A stretch of DNA of 21,672 nt from a virus: positions 1-21,672 of IMG/VR virus record IMGVR_UViG_3300030202_000428; one strand, 5' to 3'. Every line of letters starts with the position of its first letter. Within the stretch, counting starts at the first letter, position 1. The translations under genes were made by a program, and so were the position numbers. Positions 12,677 through 20,755 of this stretch are shown here, piece after piece. Under the pieces are notes generated by a model that was given only the letters and a program-made list of their open reading frames with translations, had not been told where the DNA came from and searched no databases.

Positions 12677-15600
12677 TTATTTATATACATTTGAAAATTC
12701 TATTAATAATAATATATGTTCTAAATTTGAAAAATCTAATTTTTCATTTGGTATTTCTTCTTTAAATCTTAATTTTGCTATATTACGTTTTTCTCTAGAC
12801 AGACGAGAATATTTTGAAACTGCTGCACTTAAAGGTGTAATAACTCCCTTTAACCCTTTTTTAATTTCATTACTTTCCATATAGGATTTTACTCTAGCTG
12901 TAAACACTTCTCTACCTCTAATTACAAGGTCTCTATTTAATTCTGTTCCTTTTTTACCTCTGGATTCAAAATCCTTTCTTAACTTATTTTGTGCATCAAT
13001 AGCTTCTTCTATGGCTATTGGTATTATTATTCTCCTTTGCTTATTTTCATACGCTCTAGCTTTAGGATCTTCTTTTCTACTTGCGAGTTCATAGTCAACA
13101 TTCTGATAACCTAACTCAATTAGAAATTTTTTCTCTTTAGTGTCTAAAGGTCTCTGATTAAAACCACTATATAACTTTGTTTTAACTCTAATTCTTGCTC
13201 CATCTGATGGTTCAACGAATATGTTTTCTTGATTTGGCATATTTCTTTCTGTAGAAGGTGCTGATAATCCCCTTCTCTTACCTTGTTTAATGTTTGCCTC
13301 TTTTACTGTATCCCAAAACTCTTTACTTAAATCGTCTTCTACTTCACCTCTAAATTCTTTATACTCTAATGGTCTCATAAGTTTTTCATTTGGTCCATAC
13401 CGATCAAGAACTGTTGCTCTTTGTCCTTCAATTAACTGAAAAGCTGGAGTAATAAATCTTAGTCTCCATTGACCAAACGCTTCACCAAACATCTTTGCCC
13501 ATTTTGCATCATCTTTTTCATCAGCCGTAGCATCTATTATATCTGTAATACCTTTTACCCAAACATTAGCAACACCAGTTCTTAAAGCACTTGTTCCAAA
13601 AACATCAAGAACTTCTTTCTTTGAAAAGCCAGACCACATATCTCTTGTTCCTGCTACTGTATCACGGGAACCCTCCATACCTCCACCAAATAGGTTTGAT
13701 CTTTCTGCTGCTTCTGCAATCCACAGAGCCTGTCTAACAGGAAATAAAGTTGTAGTGTCTGTTTGTGTTAAGTCTTTGTTTGGATCTGTTAGATCCATAA
13801 ACTGATTAGGGCTTACCATTTTATAATCAGCAGGTGCATCTTCAGAGTTACGATACATCATTAGTCCATATATACTCGTTAGACCCATAATGTTTCTAGA
13901 AACCATGCGTCTTTCAGTACTTGTTAATGGTCCTTTTGCATTTCCTGTAGCTCTTCTTAGTGCAGGGAGTAAAGCACCAGCACTATGTTCAGCTATAAAT
14001 TCCATACTATTAAACATAAAACGAGGAAATGGTATAACAATAGTTGCACCAGATTCAGTAATGACACTAGTAGCAATCCTAAAAGGTTTCCATTCTGGAG
14101 TTTTTGCATAAGTAACATCTAAAGCTTTTCTTACAGAATCATCCATGAGTGTTTTAAAGTCTGATGTACCTGCCTTTCTTACTGTTGAAACATCACCCAT
14201 TAAATCTTGCATGGTAAACTTTCCACTATTTAAACCATCAATTAAATCTACATCCCATTCTAATTTTACTCTTCTGTTTAATTCACCTAAAAAAGTAGCC
14301 CTTCTTACTAAAAATTCTTGAAATCTATTTGGACCATTTAAAGCCTGTACAAAATCTTCAGCAACGCTCATAGTTTTATCATAGGTTATACCAACTGGGT
14401 TTTTAAATTGTCCTCTTCCTCTAAATTTTTGTACTTCGTTTACATTATCAAACATTTTAGAAAAGTTTTCGGCAAACTCAGGTCTATTTAAAAAAAAGTC
14501 TGTATATTCTTTTGCATATTCAGGACTCGCTAAAAGCCTCATATTTTTAAATGAACCTGCCCACGCACTTCCTTTTGTAAAGGGGATTGTTGTACCAACG
14601 GCTGATTTAAGACCTTTTGTTGCATATGTATATAATGCAGCATCCATTACATTAGCCAAACTTTCTACTGGCATTCTAACTCCTGCAGAGAATAGATTAC
14701 GTGCAGCAGTGGCTAAAGAAGATACCATCATTCCTCTTGCAATACCTTCAGTACGTACAAACGTATATTTCCAAAACTTTTTAAGTGAACTTTCTGTTTT
14801 ATCTAATTTTAGTCTTTCTAAATGTTCAGTCTCATCAAAGTTTTTCATCCTACCTCTTTTTATTTGAGATAGTTTATTTAACAATCTACCTGCATCTGAT
14901 GCAGATCCAAGTATAGTTAAAATATAATCTTCAAATGAAAGATTGTGTTCAGCTAACATATCATAAATTTTTACATCACCAAGTAAATCTTTGTCTACAG
15001 TCATATCAAGTAGTTCATCTACAAGTGGTTTTCTATCCCCTCCTTTTTTAGATAGGTTTGGAAATTTTAATACCTCTTTACCATCAGCATCAATCATAGT
15101 TTGTTTTCGTAGTTTTGATACTAAAGCTACAAGACCATCTAAAAGGTTTACATTTAAATCATCTATTATTTTTTTTGTTTTGTCTTGACCAAGAAAGTTT
15201 TTAGTTGTTACCTCTGGTGATTCATTATATATCTCATCTATTCTTTTTCTACTAGATGCTCTTGATATTTTACCATCAATAACAGTGTTTCCATCTTCGT
15301 CTATCCTTGAAATTTTTACATTAGCTTTACTTTCAAATTCTGTAATAAAATCAGATTTTATGTCAGCATTTTTTATGGATTCAGCAGCATTAGAGCGATT
15401 AATAGCCTGTATACTTTCTTGTTCAAGACGACTAGCTGTACCTGTAGCCTTTCCACCTTTAGCTTTTCCAATATAACTTGATCTTATGGCCCCAAGACCT
15501 TTTCCAAAACCCTTAACCAAAATGTTTGCTTGTGCAACGTCTAAAGCAGCTAATGCAAAATAACCTGAAGCGGCTCCAAACTTACCTTCTTTTAGTCTTT

Positions 15601-16339
15601 CCTGAAACATACCAAAGTGGTATGGAGAATCTGCTAAAGCTGTTAAAGGATTTAAAATCATATCACCAAGAACAATGGTATTTATTTCACCTATCGTTAA
15701 ATCAGACTTTAAAAGTTGTTCAGTCAATCCACTACTTAGATAATTAGGAGATTTTAAATAGCTTTCTATTGTTGCTACTCTTTTATCTGAATTTTTTAAG
15801 TTAACTTTTGTGTCTTGACTTATAAGCTCTTCCATACTATATGGTAGATAATTATCTTCTTTAAAATTATTTCCTAGTTTTTCTCTTTCCTTATCTAAAA
15901 AGTAATTCCGTTCCTCAATATTATTTATACCATAGCGAGTAGACCAGTTTTTCTTAAACAGTTCTATTTGTTTTTGGTGGCTTATGTTGTTTTCTGCATC
16001 CGTAAAGATATTTTTTGTAGTCTCCTTATCCATTTTTATTTTTTCTTCTAGTAAACTTTTAGATATAGGATCTAGTGTAAGAAGATTATCTTTTACATTT
16101 GCATCTTCTGATGCGTTAATGCTCTCCTCATCATCTATAAGTTTTTGATCTTCTTCTGATATAACTTCAGCAGCAGTTTGATTTGTAAAACTATTACCTA
16201 CAACAGCGTCATTACTACTAACATTGCTATCGTCTTGAGAAGAAAAAACATTTTGATTAACTACAGGCTCTATAACTGCTTCATCTGAAAAAACATTTTT
16301 TGGATTTGTAAAACTATTGCCTATTATAACATCTGTCAT
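12677..16339 (-). CDS. Very large probable internal virion / ejection protein (1220 aa)
   Basis: This is the largest gene of the window and the last of the - strand operon. I recognise no enzymatic domain. The first 120 residues look disordered, acidic and serine/asparagine-rich, with NxF[ST] repeated at 8-11, 15-18, 30-33 and 49-52. The rest is mostly charged helical sequence, with several hydrophobic or glycine-rich segments (around 253-285 and 530-570, plus ESGATIVIPFPRFMF further on) that could insert into a membrane during DNA ejection. No lytic transglycosylase motif was seen. Length, helical composition and position after tail genes fit the large internal core or ejection proteins of podoviruses. 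This is inference. The ribosome site is weak and the 402-aa gene stops eleven bases upstream. Confidence 0.6.
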   Translation of the reverse strand: MTDVIIGNSFTNPKNVFSDEAVIEPVVNQNVFSSQDDSNVSSNDAVVGNSFTNQTAAEVISEEDQKLIDDEESINASEDANVKDNLLTLDPISKSLLEEKIKMDKETTKNIFTDAENNISHQKQIELFKKNWSTRYGINNIEERNYFLDKEREKLGNNFKEDNYLPYSMEELISQDTKVNLKNSDKRVATIESYLKSPNYLSSGLTEQLLKSDLTIGEINTIVLGDMILNPLTALADSPYHFGMFQERLKEGKFGAASGYFALAALDVAQANILVKGFGKGLGAIRSSYIGKAKGGKATGTASRLEQESIQAINRSNAAESIKNADIKSDFITEFESKANVKISRIDEDGNTVIDGKISRASSRKRIDEIYNESPEVTTKNFLGQDKTKKIIDDLNVNLLDGLVALVSKLRKQTMIDADGKEVLKFPNLSKKGGDRKPLVDELLDMTVDKDLLGDVKIYDMLAEHNLSFEDYILTILGSASDAGRLLNKLSQIKRGRMKNFDETEHLERLKLDKTESSLKKFWKYTFVRTEGIARGMMVSSLATAARNLFSAGVRMPVESLANVMDAALYTYATKGLKSAVGTTIPFTKGSAWAGSFKNMRLLASPEYAKEYTDFFLNRPEFAENFSKMFDNVNEVQKFRGRGQFKNPVGITYDKTMSVAEDFVQALNGPNRFQEFLVRRATFLGELNRRVKLEWDVDLIDGLNSGKFTMQDLMGDVSTVRKAGTSDFKTLMDDSVRKALDVTYAKTPEWKPFRIATSVITESGATIVIPFPRFMFNSMEFIAEHSAGALLPALRRATGNAKGPLTSTERRMVSRNIMGLTSIYGLMMYRNSEDAPADYKMVSPNQFMDLTDPNKDLTQTDTTTLFPVRQALWIAEAAERSNLFGGGMEGSRDTVAGTRDMWSGFSKKEVLDVFGTSALRTGVANVWVKGITDIIDATADEKDDAKWAKMFGEAFGQWRLRFITPAFQLIEGQRATVLDRYGPNEKLMRPLEYKEFRGEVEDDLSKEFWDTVKEANIKQGKRRGLSAPSTERNMPNQENIFVEPSDGARIRVKTKLYSGFNQRPLDTKEKKFLIELGYQNVDYELASRKEDPKARAYENKQRRIIIPIAIEEAIDAQNKLRKDFESRGKKGTELNRDLVIRGREVFTARVKSYMESNEIKKGLKGVITPLSAAVSKYSRLSREKRNIAKLRFKEEIPNEKLDFSNLEHILLLIEFSNVYK
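16178..16330 (-). repeat. Duplicated nonapeptide-coding repeat in the 1220-aa gene
   Basis: Residues 4-13 (VIIGNSFTNP) and 46-54 (VVGNSFTNQ) are near copies, encoded at 16330-16301 and 16204-16178. The DNA is also similar, sharing tttgtaaaactatt on the + strand. Between them two NVFS motifs at 15-18 and 30-33 repeat the same N-x-F-[ST] pattern, both within a similar gaaaaaacatttt DNA context. This suggests recent tandem duplication of a short linear motif in a disordered N-terminus. Confidence 0.6.
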
Positions 16340-16350
16340 TTATAAAATAC

Positions 16351-17559
16351 CTAATTATTTTCAATAAATGAAGCAGTAAAGAAATTGTTAAAAATTTGCT
16401 CTCCTGTTCCTACTAAATTATTGTCTTTAAAACCTGCTCCAAGATAAACAAAATTAAAAATACCAGATGCAGTATACTCTTCACCATTCATTCTTTTCTT
16501 TGTTTGAGAACCCGTAACTTTTATAACTTGACCTACTTTTAATTGTCCTGATTGAGAAAATCTTAATGCATCATCATAAGAAAATGTTGATACTTTTTCT
16601 TGTTTAAACAAATTACTAGAAGTGTCGTCAATTGCAATAGTACTTGCATAATCTATTAAAGTTTTTCTTCCTTTAAATAATTTACCTTCACGCTGCGCTT
16701 CAAACTGATCGCTCATTACTACGTCTTTTTCGTTTCTATTTATTTCTCTAGTAGTTTGATATGTTAGTAAATCAGAAATTCCATCAAGACCTTTTGATCC
16801 ATCAATAAGTTGCATTACTCCATCTACAAGACCCATAGCACCTAAAGCCCGTAATGAATCTTCTTTAGCAAGTTTAAATGTAGTGCTTATTGATACTTTA
16901 CCAAAGGGATTATTTTCTTCACCCTTTTTAGTAGTAGCAAGATGTTTTTGTTTCATAGCATATAAGTATCCACTTTTTTCTGTTTGAGCCTCTCTAAGTT
17001 CGTTCTCATTTCCAGTTTGCATAGCTCTAAGTTCTCTCTGGGTTGCGCTTGCAAATAAAGCATCTAATGACTTATCTGTTGGTTTAGGTGCATATATAGT
17101 TTTCAAAACATCTGGATCTAGACCAAAAGCACTTACTGTTTCTGAGCCATCATCTCCTGAGGCTACATTCATTATATTATTAATTTGTTGTGTATCGTCA
17201 CTTAGATTAGCACCCTTTACACTAGATGCTTTATAAATAGTATTGACGTTAACTCCTTTTTTTAGAGCATCTACAGCCCATTGAGAAGCTTGAGTTATAG
17301 ATGCTTCACCTCCACGTAAAAACTTTGCTACTAACTCTGGTTCATAACCTAAGTTTCTAAGAGCTTCAGCATCTCTCTCAGCTTGTCTTTTTTCTTTTTT
17401 CTCTGCACTTTTTTCCTCAAACTCAGTTTGTATTTCAGCAGATGTTCTAAGTCTTTTTTCTTCAGCGAGAGTTTTTTCATGTGCATTCATACGGTTACGC
17501 ATTGTTTTAGTTGCACCTATTGCACCCCCAGCAATTATTGTACCAATATTAAAACCCAT
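16351..17559 (-). CDS. Probable virion-associated protein (402 aa), unknown function
   Basis: I do not recognise a family. The N-terminus has a short glycine-rich hydrophobic segment (IGTIIAGGAIGA, about 5-16), followed by a long highly charged helix (about 27-66, rich in E, K and R) with coiled-coil character. The remainder is mixed, with a possible small beta domain near the C-terminus (LKVGQVIKVTGSQTKKR, then GIFNFVYLGAGF). Small glycine-rich segments before long helices are common in internal and ejection proteins of short-tailed phages. It overlaps the stop of the 169-aa gene by one base (TAATG), with an aggag ribosome site, so the four genes from 18271 to 12677 look like one translational unit. 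Confidence 0.6.
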   Translation of the reverse strand: MGFNIGTIIAGGAIGATKTMRNRMNAHEKTLAEEKRLRTSAEIQTEFEEKSAEKKEKRQAERDAEALRNLGYEPELVAKFLRGGEASITQASQWAVDALKKGVNVNTIYKASSVKGANLSDDTQQINNIMNVASGDDGSETVSAFGLDPDVLKTIYAPKPTDKSLDALFASATQRELRAMQTGNENELREAQTEKSGYLYAMKQKHLATTKKGEENNPFGKVSISTTFKLAKEDSLRALGAMGLVDGVMQLIDGSKGLDGISDLLTYQTTREINRNEKDVVMSDQFEAQREGKLFKGRKTLIDYASTIAIDDTSSNLFKQEKVSTFSYDDALRFSQSGQLKVGQVIKVTGSQTKKRMNGEEYTASGIFNFVYLGAGFKDNNLVGTGEQIFNNFFTASFIENN

Positions 17560-18068
17560 TACACTCTCCTCGCCATTAAGCCTGTAGGTTGCTCTTCTTC
17601 CATTACAGGTTCGGATTCTTCTGTCATCATATCCTCAGACATATCCTGATCATTAAATTTGTCACCTGCTTTTTTTACAGCAAGAGCAATTTCACTACTA
17701 GAGTACCCATTACTACTTTTTCTTTCTACACCTGTTGTATATTTAATACCTGCATTTTCTGCCATTAGTGACATGAGTTCTACGATTACAGGCAAAACAA
17801 GTATTCCTACATCAATCGTATGTTTTCCTTCCATAACAGAACTTATCTGTAAAGCATTTGCTATAGAAGTAAGTGGCATACCTAATTCAATTACATCTAA
17901 CAAGGGTTGTTTTAAATCTTCAGAGTTAATTCTCTGTAGATAAAAGTCTATTGCGTCTTCTACTGTTGCATATTGAGAAGGTTTTTCCCAAGGTCTATTA
18001 CCTAGTTCTGAAGTAAAAGACTGACCCGGTATAGGTGCATCAAAAGGTAGTTGTTGTATTTCTGCCAT
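17559..18068 (-). CDS. Conserved virion-associated protein (169 aa), unknown function
   Basis: The N-terminus reads DAPIPGQSFTSELGNRPWE, then KPSQYATVEDAIDFYL. I recall this proline-rich PGQS...PWE...PxxxxxxEDA pattern from small proteins near tail or internal-protein genes of several marine phages, always of unknown function. A hydrophobic stretch, VGILVLPVIVELMSLM (87-102), could associate with a membrane or pack as a core helix. The C-terminal third is acidic and methionine-rich (DQDMSEDMMTEESEPVMEEE) and ends in PTGLMARRV, a short basic tip. The start overlaps the upstream stop by one base and has agaggaa as a ribosome site. Confidence 0.65.
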   Translation of the reverse strand: MAEIQQLPFDAPIPGQSFTSELGNRPWEKPSQYATVEDAIDFYLQRINSEDLKQPLLDVIELGMPLTSIANALQISSVMEGKHTIDVGILVLPVIVELMSLMAENAGIKYTTGVERKSSNGYSSSEIALAVKKAGDKFNDQDMSEDMMTEESEPVMEEEQPTGLMARRV

Positions 18069-18271
18069 TATATTTCCTCTGAACTCTTCACTCGTTTAAT
18101 CATATTTACATAGTCTACAACAATATCTAACGGCTCCATAGTTGTTGACTCTTCTTCTTCAACAAAACTTCTAGAAAGTAATCCACCAGATCGTACCACT
18201 GGTTGTACTTTATTTTTTTCTTGTGCTTTTTTTAGTGTTTCTACATATACTTTATTTGCATTATCGTACAT
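18068..18271 (-). CDS. Small protein of unknown function (67 aa)
   Basis: A 67-aa product between the 824-aa and 169-aa virion genes. It has a basic first half (about residues 8-27, including KKAQEKNKVQPVVR), a SGGLLSRSF box at about 28-36 and an acidic second half ending in a short helix (DIVVDYVNMIKRV). The GGLLSR element resembles the GLMAR end of the neighbouring 169-aa protein, which may be coincidence. An aaggaaac ribosome site lies just ahead of the ATG. Tight spacing on both sides (9 bases upstream, 1-base overlap downstream) supports a real gene. I do not recognise a family. Confidence 0.65.
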   Translation of the reverse strand: MYDNANKVYVETLKKAQEKNKVQPVVRSGGLLSRSFVEEEESTTMEPLDIVVDYVNMIKRVKSSEEI

Positions 18272-18280
18272 TATGTTTCC

Positions 18281-20755
18281 TTAACTTAGTATACTAGATG
18301 GACCACTTAAAAACTTTGATCCTCCAGTTAAAAATGTTCCTATTAATTCACCAAACGCTAAAGAATTAGAATGATCATTTCGTACATCTTCTAAAGTTAA
18401 TGTTGCATCGTTAGCCATTTGTTGTCTAACAATCGCGTTCCATCTATCCTGCTCATCTTCAGCACTTTCCCATGCCCAGTGCATAGTATCTGCATAATAT
18501 TTCCACAGATTGTTATATGCTGTATCTGACATATTAAGAATGCTAGATGCATTTATTTCATTTGCTCTATTAATAGCAACTGTATCTGCAGTAGCAATTT
18601 GTCTACGCCACTGTGCATTATTTTGATCTATAACTAGTCTATTTTGTGCATTGAACTGGTCGCGTTGGTTCTGTATATTTTTGTTAAACTGATCCATAGC
18701 ATTTGTTTGACCTGCATTAAACTGTGCTTGAGCGTTAGACTGTGACGCATTAAACTGAGCAGTAGCATTCTTTAAGTTTGCAAAGAAATCATCTCTTTGG
18801 TTTTGACTACTTGCATTAAACTGTCTTGATGCATTCTCAGCAGCTTGGTCTGTAAACAATGCTTGTATTCTTTGTTGTGATTTAAACAACTCTGTTTGCT
18901 GTTGATTAGATAAGTTAGCCATATCTATTTGCATAAAGGATTGTGCATTTAAAACTGCAGCTTGCTGATGATTACTAAGATTCGCCATGTCTAACTGTGC
19001 TAATGCAGCAGCTTCTGCCATAATCAATGCCTGTTTACTATTTAGGTTTTGTAAGTTTACCGTATTACCTATACGACTATTCTCTAATTCTACTTGTTGT
19101 TCTGCAGTAAAGTTTAAATTAGCGATATCACCTATACGTGCAGAGTTTTGTACTCTTGCTTGAAATGCTTGGTCAAACTCCATACCCATAAATGTGGCAC
19201 GTTGTTGTGCTGCAAGCATAGCACGTTGTTGACGATTTGACAAGTTCTGTGCTTCAAATTGTGCAACTATTTGTGCATCTGCCTGTGCTATTGGTAGTGC
19301 AGATTCCATAGCTCCTTGGATAAGAGCCTGTGCTGCCATACTTGATGCACCCAAACCTCTATTAGCCATCTGTGTCGTGACGTTACGCATTGCTCCTGCT
19401 GCCCATGCAGGTGTAGCACCACCTTCAAAGGCTGCCATCAATCCTTCTAACTGTCCTTGTACTGTAGCTTTGTTCGTTGGTGTTGCCTCTGCAGCTTGTA
19501 CCTGTTCAGTAAAGTTAGCTGCTGTCTGGGCATTAGCTGCTCCACTTACAAGTTCACCTGTTTCAATCTTACGTTGATTGGGGTTATTCATAAGGATGCC
19601 TGTACCCTGTACTGCATCTAGACTGCTTACACCTGTATTAACAGTTGACTGTGCAGCAATTACTGCTCTAGGATCTACGGCTCCCTGTGCTGCAGTAAGA
19701 GTGTCAGCAGCTATACCAATTTCAGTGGCTGCAGTGTCAGCAGTCATTGTGCTAACTGGAGTTGCCGTTGGTGCTGCAGCTTGTGCAGTTGTAGCTCCAG
19801 TTGCCTGTCCAGCAATAGCTCCACTTACCTGACCAGATGCTGTATCTACAGCTTGGTTTTGATTAAATGCTGTACCAACTGGTGATACTGTAGCACCAAA
19901 AGGTAAGCCCGGAGTAAATGCTCTGTTAGACATTGCTTCAGTTATAGTACCACCCTGATACCCAGTTGACTGAGGCACTGGCCCCTGTGTGTAGTCTACT
20001 GGTGATGTGGGTGCTGTTGCTGTAGGGGCATTACCTCTCTGATCGCTTTCAGGTCCACCTTTAAACTCAGGTAAAACTGCTGGTGGAGCTTGTGTAAAAT
20101 CAGTACCACCCCGTAAGTAATTTGCTTGTCCTGATCTATTTAAATAAGCCTCATATGCTCTATCTGCTGCAGCACCAACAGATCCAGATCCTTGTTCACC
20201 AAAGTAAGGACTAAAACGCATATCTGCTGTACCAATTCTATTACTTGGATCATTTATAAAGGCGTTATATTCTGGTGAGTCATAGTACCCAGATACAACA
20301 TTAGGGTTTCTTTGTACAGGTGGTCGTGGGTCTATAAGCATTCCAGTAGAAGGACTACCCTGTGCTAATAAATTACTACTTACTGGTCCACCATATGGCG
20401 TACCCTGTTGATATTCAGCAAAGGATATTGGTGTACCCATCTCTCTTGGACCCATTTCTCTACTTACTCTACTTGGATTATCTGTAGCTACACTACCATC
20501 TGGCATTCTATAATAAGCTATTTCTCTGGTTTCTATGCCACCAAATTTCTCTGATACAACACCACCATTAGCATAGCCTTTTACATAGCCACCCATCATC
20601 ATCTCTTTAGCTTTTTCAGAGTACACATCCATCATTTCTTGTTTATCAGGATTTTCATTTAGAAATCTATCAAACTCCTTCATGTCTCCTGAGTATCCCA
20701 TAGTCTTAGCCATGCGGTTTAATGCGTCTGGTTTAAATCCCTGAAATTGTAACAT
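18281..20755 (-). CDS. Large Gln/Asn/Ala-rich virion protein with 11-residue repeats (824 aa)
   Basis: Three regions can be seen. Residues 1-80 are a helical start with a MMMGGYVKGYANGGVV segment. Residues 90-430 are low-complexity, rich in G, P, T, A and Q, probably disordered or fibrous. Residues 460-735 are helical, starting with NRGLGASSMAAQAL and built on 11- and 22-residue periodicity: an NLSNxQQ box recurs at about 504, 592 and 614, and seven exact 11-residue units beginning QFNA-like run from 645 to 721. The last 100 residues are a tryptophan-rich helix and a hydrophobic end. I recall similar NRGLGASS/QFNA proteins in marine phage structural modules. A tail or internal virion role is likely, but not proven. 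Ribosome site aagga precedes the ATG. Confidence 0.7.
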   Translation of the reverse strand: MLQFQGFKPDALNRMAKTMGYSGDMKEFDRFLNENPDKQEMMDVYSEKAKEMMMGGYVKGYANGGVVSEKFGGIETREIAYYRMPDGSVATDNPSRVSREMGPREMGTPISFAEYQQGTPYGGPVSSNLLAQGSPSTGMLIDPRPPVQRNPNVVSGYYDSPEYNAFINDPSNRIGTADMRFSPYFGEQGSGSVGAAADRAYEAYLNRSGQANYLRGGTDFTQAPPAVLPEFKGGPESDQRGNAPTATAPTSPVDYTQGPVPQSTGYQGGTITEAMSNRAFTPGLPFGATVSPVGTAFNQNQAVDTASGQVSGAIAGQATGATTAQAAAPTATPVSTMTADTAATEIGIAADTLTAAQGAVDPRAVIAAQSTVNTGVSSLDAVQGTGILMNNPNQRKIETGELVSGAANAQTAANFTEQVQAAEATPTNKATVQGQLEGLMAAFEGGATPAWAAGAMRNVTTQMANRGLGASSMAAQALIQGAMESALPIAQADAQIVAQFEAQNLSNRQQRAMLAAQQRATFMGMEFDQAFQARVQNSARIGDIANLNFTAEQQVELENSRIGNTVNLQNLNSKQALIMAEAAALAQLDMANLSNHQQAAVLNAQSFMQIDMANLSNQQQTELFKSQQRIQALFTDQAAENASRQFNASSQNQRDDFFANLKNATAQFNASQSNAQAQFNAGQTNAMDQFNKNIQNQRDQFNAQNRLVIDQNNAQWRRQIATADTVAINRANEINASSILNMSDTAYNNLWKYYADTMHWAWESAEDEQDRWNAIVRQQMANDATLTLEDVRNDHSNSLAFGELIGTFLTGGSKFLSGPSSILS
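18593..18823 (-). repeat. Seven tandem 33-bp units coding hendecad (11-residue) repeats
   Basis: Residues 645-721 of the 824-aa protein are seven units of exactly 11 residues, starting at 645, 656, 667, 678, 689, 700 and 711. Typical units are QFNASQSNAQA and QFNAGQTNAMD. Phenylalanine is at unit position 2 in six of seven, and asparagine at position 8 in the first five. An 11-residue step fits a hendecad coiled coil, which winds straighter or right-handed compared with heptads. On the + strand the repeats show as recurrent gcattaaactg. Confidence 0.85.

Follow-up and report, generated by a model that had tools for sequence, protein, structure and literature searches.

The closest described counterpart of the protein reported here is H, the DNA-delivery protein of phiX174. 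Its tube domain, residues 151–271, contains three exact hendecads, from residue 151 to 183, followed by heptads, and its decameric helices form a tube 170 Å long in which 18 of the 23 lumen residues are Asn, Gln or Arg (PMC7354561). In T7 and P22 the genes with which we compare the present cassette follow one another in rising size, as gp14-gp15-gp16 and gp7-gp20-gp16 respectively, and gp14-like proteins are 181–240 aa long (PMC8954989). In phage DEV, the podophage ejection proteins gp73:gp72 form a helical conduit ∼300 Å long (PMC10925440).

The array described below shares with phiX174 H exact 11-residue units that begin with Gln, a Gln/Asn-rich alpha helix and an 11/3 phase (PMC7354561), and H is its best analogue. 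The two differ in that H belongs to an ssDNA microvirus and has a fixed length of 170 Å, whereas the hendecad family belongs to dsDNA podoviruses, and in that H has three hendecads and then heptads, whereas the family has 12–50 hendecads with no heptad part seen. The DEV conduit is also comparable in length with the present array, which would span ∼340 Å if straight; its gene sizes are different, however, and the accessible text of that report gives no hendecad array for DEV (PMC10925440).

The window analysed here is the whole of IMG/VR virus record IMGVR_UViG_3300030202_000428, a stretch of 21,672 bases that stands by itself. Its DNA polymerase shares 65–72% identity with the enzymes of Roseobacter phages CRP-345 and CRP-1 and of Puniceispirillum phage HMO-2011, and its DNA match to HMO-2011 extends over the array-coding stretch. 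These polymerase identities and DNA matches place the contig with the HMO-2011-type podoviruses; judged by sequence, its source is a marine phage of this type, whose members have short tails (PMC9038755; PMC6918029). A tyrosine integrase at 1305–2390 heads the replication module and, as integrases are known from HMO-2011-type subgroups I and III (PMC9038755), the phage may be temperate. Identical phage contigs (L269-L272) are present in a Flavobacteriales MAG and a Neomarinimicrobiota MAG; being common to both, they make both bacterial assignments look like binning artefacts.

Relatives of the hendecad protein were found in 27 phage records and 182 IMG/VR stretches, with more distant ones besides. 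Its N-terminal residues 1–73 matched five records of the HMO-2011-type group by tblastn, and in the upstream anchor segment the PxWA-to-PIA distance is 37–39 among relatives. The protein of the window gave no match above noise in PHROGs or Pfam, and a profile search of all PDB chains with the hendecad family gave none at E values up to 10, hence no sequence homology to phiX174 H; homology to the DEV proteins was looked for by this same search only, with none found. Foldseek searches with a low-confidence AF2 model returned nothing significant from the PDB, and from BFVD phage homologues only. We found no paper that describes hendecads in this protein.

Table 1. Features of the hendecad-array protein and of its gene cassette, with the basis of each assignment.
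Feature	Coordinates	Strand	Basis
Hendecad-array protein, 824 aa	18281..20755	-	ORF; opens terminal virion cassette
N-terminal conserved segment, residues 1-70, ending GYxNGG	20546..20755	-	tblastn
Variable linker, Pro/Gly/Ala-rich, residues 71-425	19481..20545	-	N-terminal lengths in relatives
Upstream anchor WAAGAMR..RGLGASS..ALPIAQ, conserved, residues 447-490	19286..19417	-	alignment
Complete in-phase hendecad array, 21 units, residues 491-721	18593..19285	-	phase table, spacing law, proline-free
Upstream array part, NLSNxQQ box per 22 residues, residues 491-644	18824..19285	-	lag 22, period 2.75
QFNA part, seven units, residues 645-721	18593..18823	-	units read from translation
One continuous alpha helix (predicted), residues 617-740	18536..18907	-	AF2 monomer model
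C-terminal tail, Gly-rich, weakly hydrophobic, residues 798-824	18284..18364	-	maximum KD17 0.88
67-aa cassette protein	18068..18271	-	ORF; small ORF here also in CRP-345, CRP-1, phiM6
169-aa cassette protein (FDAPIPG...GVMEGxHxxDVG)	17559..18068	-	27 phage records, identical to hendecad-gene set
402-aa cassette protein, gp15/gp20 position	16351..17559	-	gene position
1220-aa cassette protein, gp16 position, mostly helical	12677..16339	-	AF2 pTM 0.65

Register and helix geometry of the array

The QFNA units read QFNASSQNQRD, DFFANLKNATA, QFNASQSNAQA, QFNAGQTNAMD, QFNKNIQNQRD, QFNAQNRLVID and QNNAQWRRQIA; their spacing is exact but their sequence is not, since unit 2 begins with DFFA and unit 7 with QNNA. 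At lag 11 the identity reaches 0.455 (z = 8.9, against a maximum z of 4.7 in 2,000 shuffles), and the spectrum of FILMVWY residues peaks at a period of 3.67 with a power of 9.3, the shuffle maximum being 7.8. The first-pass annotation had read seven 11-residue units here, with coordinates that prove exact, preceded by a looser 11/22-residue periodicity. The 22-residue period is borne out by lag 22 in residues 485–644 (z = 4.5, 95% shuffle limit 3.3), with one correction to that reading. When the phase is counted backward from the conserved NAxWRR motif, the upstream part shares that of the QFNA part, so that the two form one run of ∼21 units with no phase break; in both parts, most units have Asn as their third residue. 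Codons have diverged among the seven QFNA units and Tandem Repeats Finder detects no 33-base DNA repeat under the array, from which we conclude that the periodicity is old and maintained at the protein level.

The hydrophobic stripe of the QFNA part completes a turn every 3.670 residues in the window, and the median for 195 relatives is 3.67 (interquartile range 3.662–3.679). This equals 11/3, or three turns per 11 residues, and implies a helix with almost no supercoil, nearly straight. Its amide face is made up of unit positions 8, 1, 5 and 9. Gln, Asn and Ala together account for 49% of array residues, Gln and Asn for 32%, and proline is absent from all 37,428 residues of 158 distinct arrays, compared with 4.7% outside the arrays of these proteins. 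An AF2 monomer model of residues 426–824, built on an alignment of 25 sequences from IMG/VR loci only, has a single helix across residues 617–740, with pLDDT of about 70–81 over the QFNA part; before residue 617 the confidence is low.

Of the features expected of an 11/3 coiled coil, the unbroken 11-residue phase runs through the whole array, and the stripe of ∼3.67 is confined to the QFNA part. The upstream part has its hydrophobic period peak at 2.75, or 11/4, with no clear single stripe. Between residues 485–644 and 645–721 (18593–19303) the hydrophobic period thus passes from 11/4 to 11/3 within one continuous phase, and the hydrophobic face turns by roughly 150–180°. The upstream period and the differently pointing face suggest that the two parts of the array probably pack differently.

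Whole-unit spacing, described below, the lack of proline, the 3.67 stripe and the AF2 helix together give good support to a straight helix, and we hold with high confidence that the array is a hendecad helix, rich in Gln, Asn and Ala, that is long and nearly straight; length and near-straightness had been predicted in the first-pass annotation. Calculated at 1.5 Å per residue, the 228 residues between the anchors of the window protein would extend ∼34 nm, and the family would range from 21 to 84 nm.

Array length among relatives

The strongest new result is that the distance between the anchors is quantised among relatives. The anchors are the Pro of xLPIA (residue 488) and the Trp of NAxWRR (residue 716). 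Among the 175 relatives that have both, 16 different distances occur, from 140 to 558 residues, and every one of these relatives has a distance equal to 8 modulo 11; with looser anchors the same holds for 203 of 203 relatives, with 18 values over the same range. Five apparent exceptions under the looser anchors proved to be false anchor matches downstream of the true ones, which lie 228, 228, 228, 184 and 162 residues apart, again 8 modulo 11. Odd and even numbers of units both occur, showing that the module is 11 residues and not 22. As a control within the same proteins, the pre-array length takes 111 values and the post-array length 40, both evenly distributed modulo 11. Loss of register in close relatives was named at the outset as grounds for rejecting the first-pass reading; the opposite is seen, register being kept in every relative measured.

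A tree built from the flanking sequence requires at least 15 changes of array length. Duplication within a tandem array itself yields growth by whole units, so that the length law alone is no proof of a structural demand. The zero drift, the absence of DNA-level repeats and the features of helix geometry nevertheless argue for a structural demand on the register. A low-complexity repeat that grows by unit duplication and keeps its register with no such demand would show the same whole-unit changes; the want of a DNA-level repeat, the zero prolines, the preference for Asn as third residue of the unit, seen in arrays of 12–50 units, and the absence of in-frame indel drift (0 of 203 relatives) all speak against it, and we regard it as the least probable of the explanations considered.

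Gene cassette and C-terminal domain

The final run of virion genes opens with the hendecad gene in HMO-2011, CRP-345, CRP-1, phiM6, CHOED, MQM1, Slicky01 and pelagiphages. The gene comes after tail-fibre-like genes. The cassette that closes the virion module has the order hendecad, small, 169, 402, 1220 (HMO-2011, CRP-345, phiM6, CHOED, MQM1 and others), and in most of these phages the genes downstream are a small gene, one of the 169-aa type, one of 365–930 aa and a large one. The 169-aa protein is probably a functional partner of the hendecad protein. Conserved motifs in the 1220-aa protein include RRGLLVSQxATAARN and PFPRFMFNSMEL. Its AF2 model, made on 929 residues, is fairly confident; no Foldseek match had an E value below 0.4, and VIA Z scores all stayed short of 5. 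Despite the lack of a strong PDB match to this model we make no claim of a new fold. The Slicky01 counterpart matches a PHROG virion structural protein (2e-18).

In order and rising size the cassette resembles gp14-gp15-gp16 of T7 and gp7-gp20-gp16 of P22 (PMC8954989), and the hendecad gene sits where the first ejection gene would, with extra small genes present and with downstream genes that are putative ejection genes. Like T7 gp14 and P22 gp7, the hendecad protein is the first of a small-to-large cassette ending the virion genes and is a polar helical protein with a Gly-rich, weakly hydrophobic C-terminus. Those proteins, however, are of ∼200 aa with predicted transmembrane helices and have no long repeat array, whereas the protein of the window has 824 aa and a tail whose weak hydrophobicity falls short of a clear transmembrane helix. 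Using hhalign, no homology was found between the 402- and 1220-aa products and T7 gp15/gp16 or P22 gp20/gp16, nor between the hendecad family and T7 gp14, P22 gp7, Pseudomonas AH02 gp11 or the Salmonella 7-11 and Octadecabacter DB2 types. The array region taken by itself gave probabilities under 3% against T7 gp14, P22 gp7 and the DB2-type proteins.

The C-terminal tail of some relatives continues into an S74 chaperone domain. Peptidase_S74 was found by Pfam at the C-terminus of the CRP-3 form (E 6.7e-6) and the CRP-738 form (E 1.7e-10), and by motif in the forms from L221 and L224; the window protein lacks it in Pfam, as do most members of the family. Residues 258–618 of the CRP-3 form align with most of the phrog_6121 profile (‘virion structural protein’), the CRP-738 form matches phrog_4287, ‘DNA ejection protein’, with its C-terminus only, and several S74 matches of the family are tail-fibre PHROGs. 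The Salmonella 7-11 ‘DNA ejection protein’ has a similar S74-type C-terminus, and so does AH02 gp11, whose gene lies directly 5' of a ‘P22-like injection translocase’, in the position of P22 gp7. S74 is a mobile domain, common on tail fibres and typical of trimeric ones, and because of this mobility and frequency its link to ejection is a lead and not proof.

Proteins of the Octadecabacter DB2 gp18 and Salmonella 7-11 type, which are related to each other (hhalign, 91%), have the S74 C-terminus of some hendecad-family members, and some of their relatives also have quantised 11-mer arrays, although the array region is not homologous by hhalign. Independent long arrays of this kind, with units such as QANLQAGTTSA and QQAMQAQLANQ, were seen in L147, L148 and L149, of the DB2 gp18 type. 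Nine DB2-type sequences have spacings of 118, 140, 162, 195, 228 and 349, all 8 modulo 11, and nine others, a short subgroup with a spacing of 89, break the rule.

Candidate roles of the helix

Our preferred explanation is that the array forms a single alpha helix of great length, free of proline and in 11/3 phase, and that neighbouring copies would most likely associate in parallel, as a bundle or tube. Within this podovirus group the hendecad protein would most likely act as the first of the ejection (internal virion) proteins, held in the capsid and then leaving through the portal, and with the 169-, 402- and 1220-aa products it would build a DNA conduit across the envelope; the amide-rich helix may face the lumen of this conduit, as its counterpart does in phiX174 H. 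The precedents of that tube and of the DEV gp73:gp72 conduit lead us to judge an ejected or internal helical protein likeliest, and a tail rod next. That this is an internal or ejected protein of the cassette we consider reasonably probable; the complete explanation, with the straight helix as part of an ejected conduit, we put at even chances, and formation of a DNA-conducting tube is a tentative proposal. Such a tube had been suggested in the first-pass annotation, and gene position, the S74 link and the phiX174 H precedent favour it, while the lack of homology does not. The longest arrays (558 aa, ∼84 nm if straight) look too long for a conduit that simply spans one periplasm. The label ‘virion protein’, also given in that annotation, is one we infer likewise, our literature search having returned no virion proteomics for this protein and no source reporting it in a virion.

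If the protein were instead an external rod or fibre of the tail, a rod being the other role suggested in the first-pass annotation, its straight hendecad helices would form a small oligomer fixed to the tail, for example a parallel trimer, and in some relatives a C-terminal chaperone would assist its folding. The S74 domains of the CRP-3, CRP-738, L221 and L224 forms, the tail-fibre PHROGs among the S74 matches and the tail-fibre-like genes that precede the hendecad gene would all suit such a rod. The same type of S74, however, is carried by the Salmonella 7-11 ejection protein and by the AH02 protein at the P22 gp7 position, and most members, that of the window included, have none. The gene is grouped with large internal-type proteins rather than with those of fibres. 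Unlike host-specific fibres, its product keeps the array sequence across very different hosts; we therefore think a tail rod unlikely. Gene position and helical content would fit equally well an internal core or portal-ring protein that organises the packaged DNA or the core stack and forms no conduit, the whole units setting the height of the core, and DEV gp72 rings the portal as helices before ejection (PMC10925440). Known core proteins at that gene position are ejected, however, and the amide-rich helix looks like that of a tube facing nucleic acid (PMC7354561), making a purely structural core protein somewhat less likely again.

The array could also be an amphipathic helix that lies on a membrane, coating or thinning it. 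Amphipathic repeats of 11 and 22 residues are a hallmark of the apolipoprotein, synuclein and perilipin class, and the QFNA part is weakly amphipathic (mean moment 0.28). Residues 489–620, however, have almost no moment (0.02–0.15), the net charge is about zero, and a HeliQuest-type discriminant exceeds 0.68 in only 1 of 12 windows of 22 residues; a lipid-bound helix is accordingly improbable, more so than either the tail rod or the core protein.

Returning to the preferred ejected helix, a four-fold range of lengths that is strictly quantised, with zero prolines and a fixed register, represents a sharp constraint on the helix, and this makes the idea of a tube directly testable. The family also provides natural helical rods of graded length, ready to use. 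More speculatively, widespread dsDNA podoviruses may possess ejected hendecad tubes tuned in three-turn modules, with 12–50 units giving conduits of ∼21–84 nm, and this habit may also have arisen in a second, apparently unrelated family of first ejection proteins.
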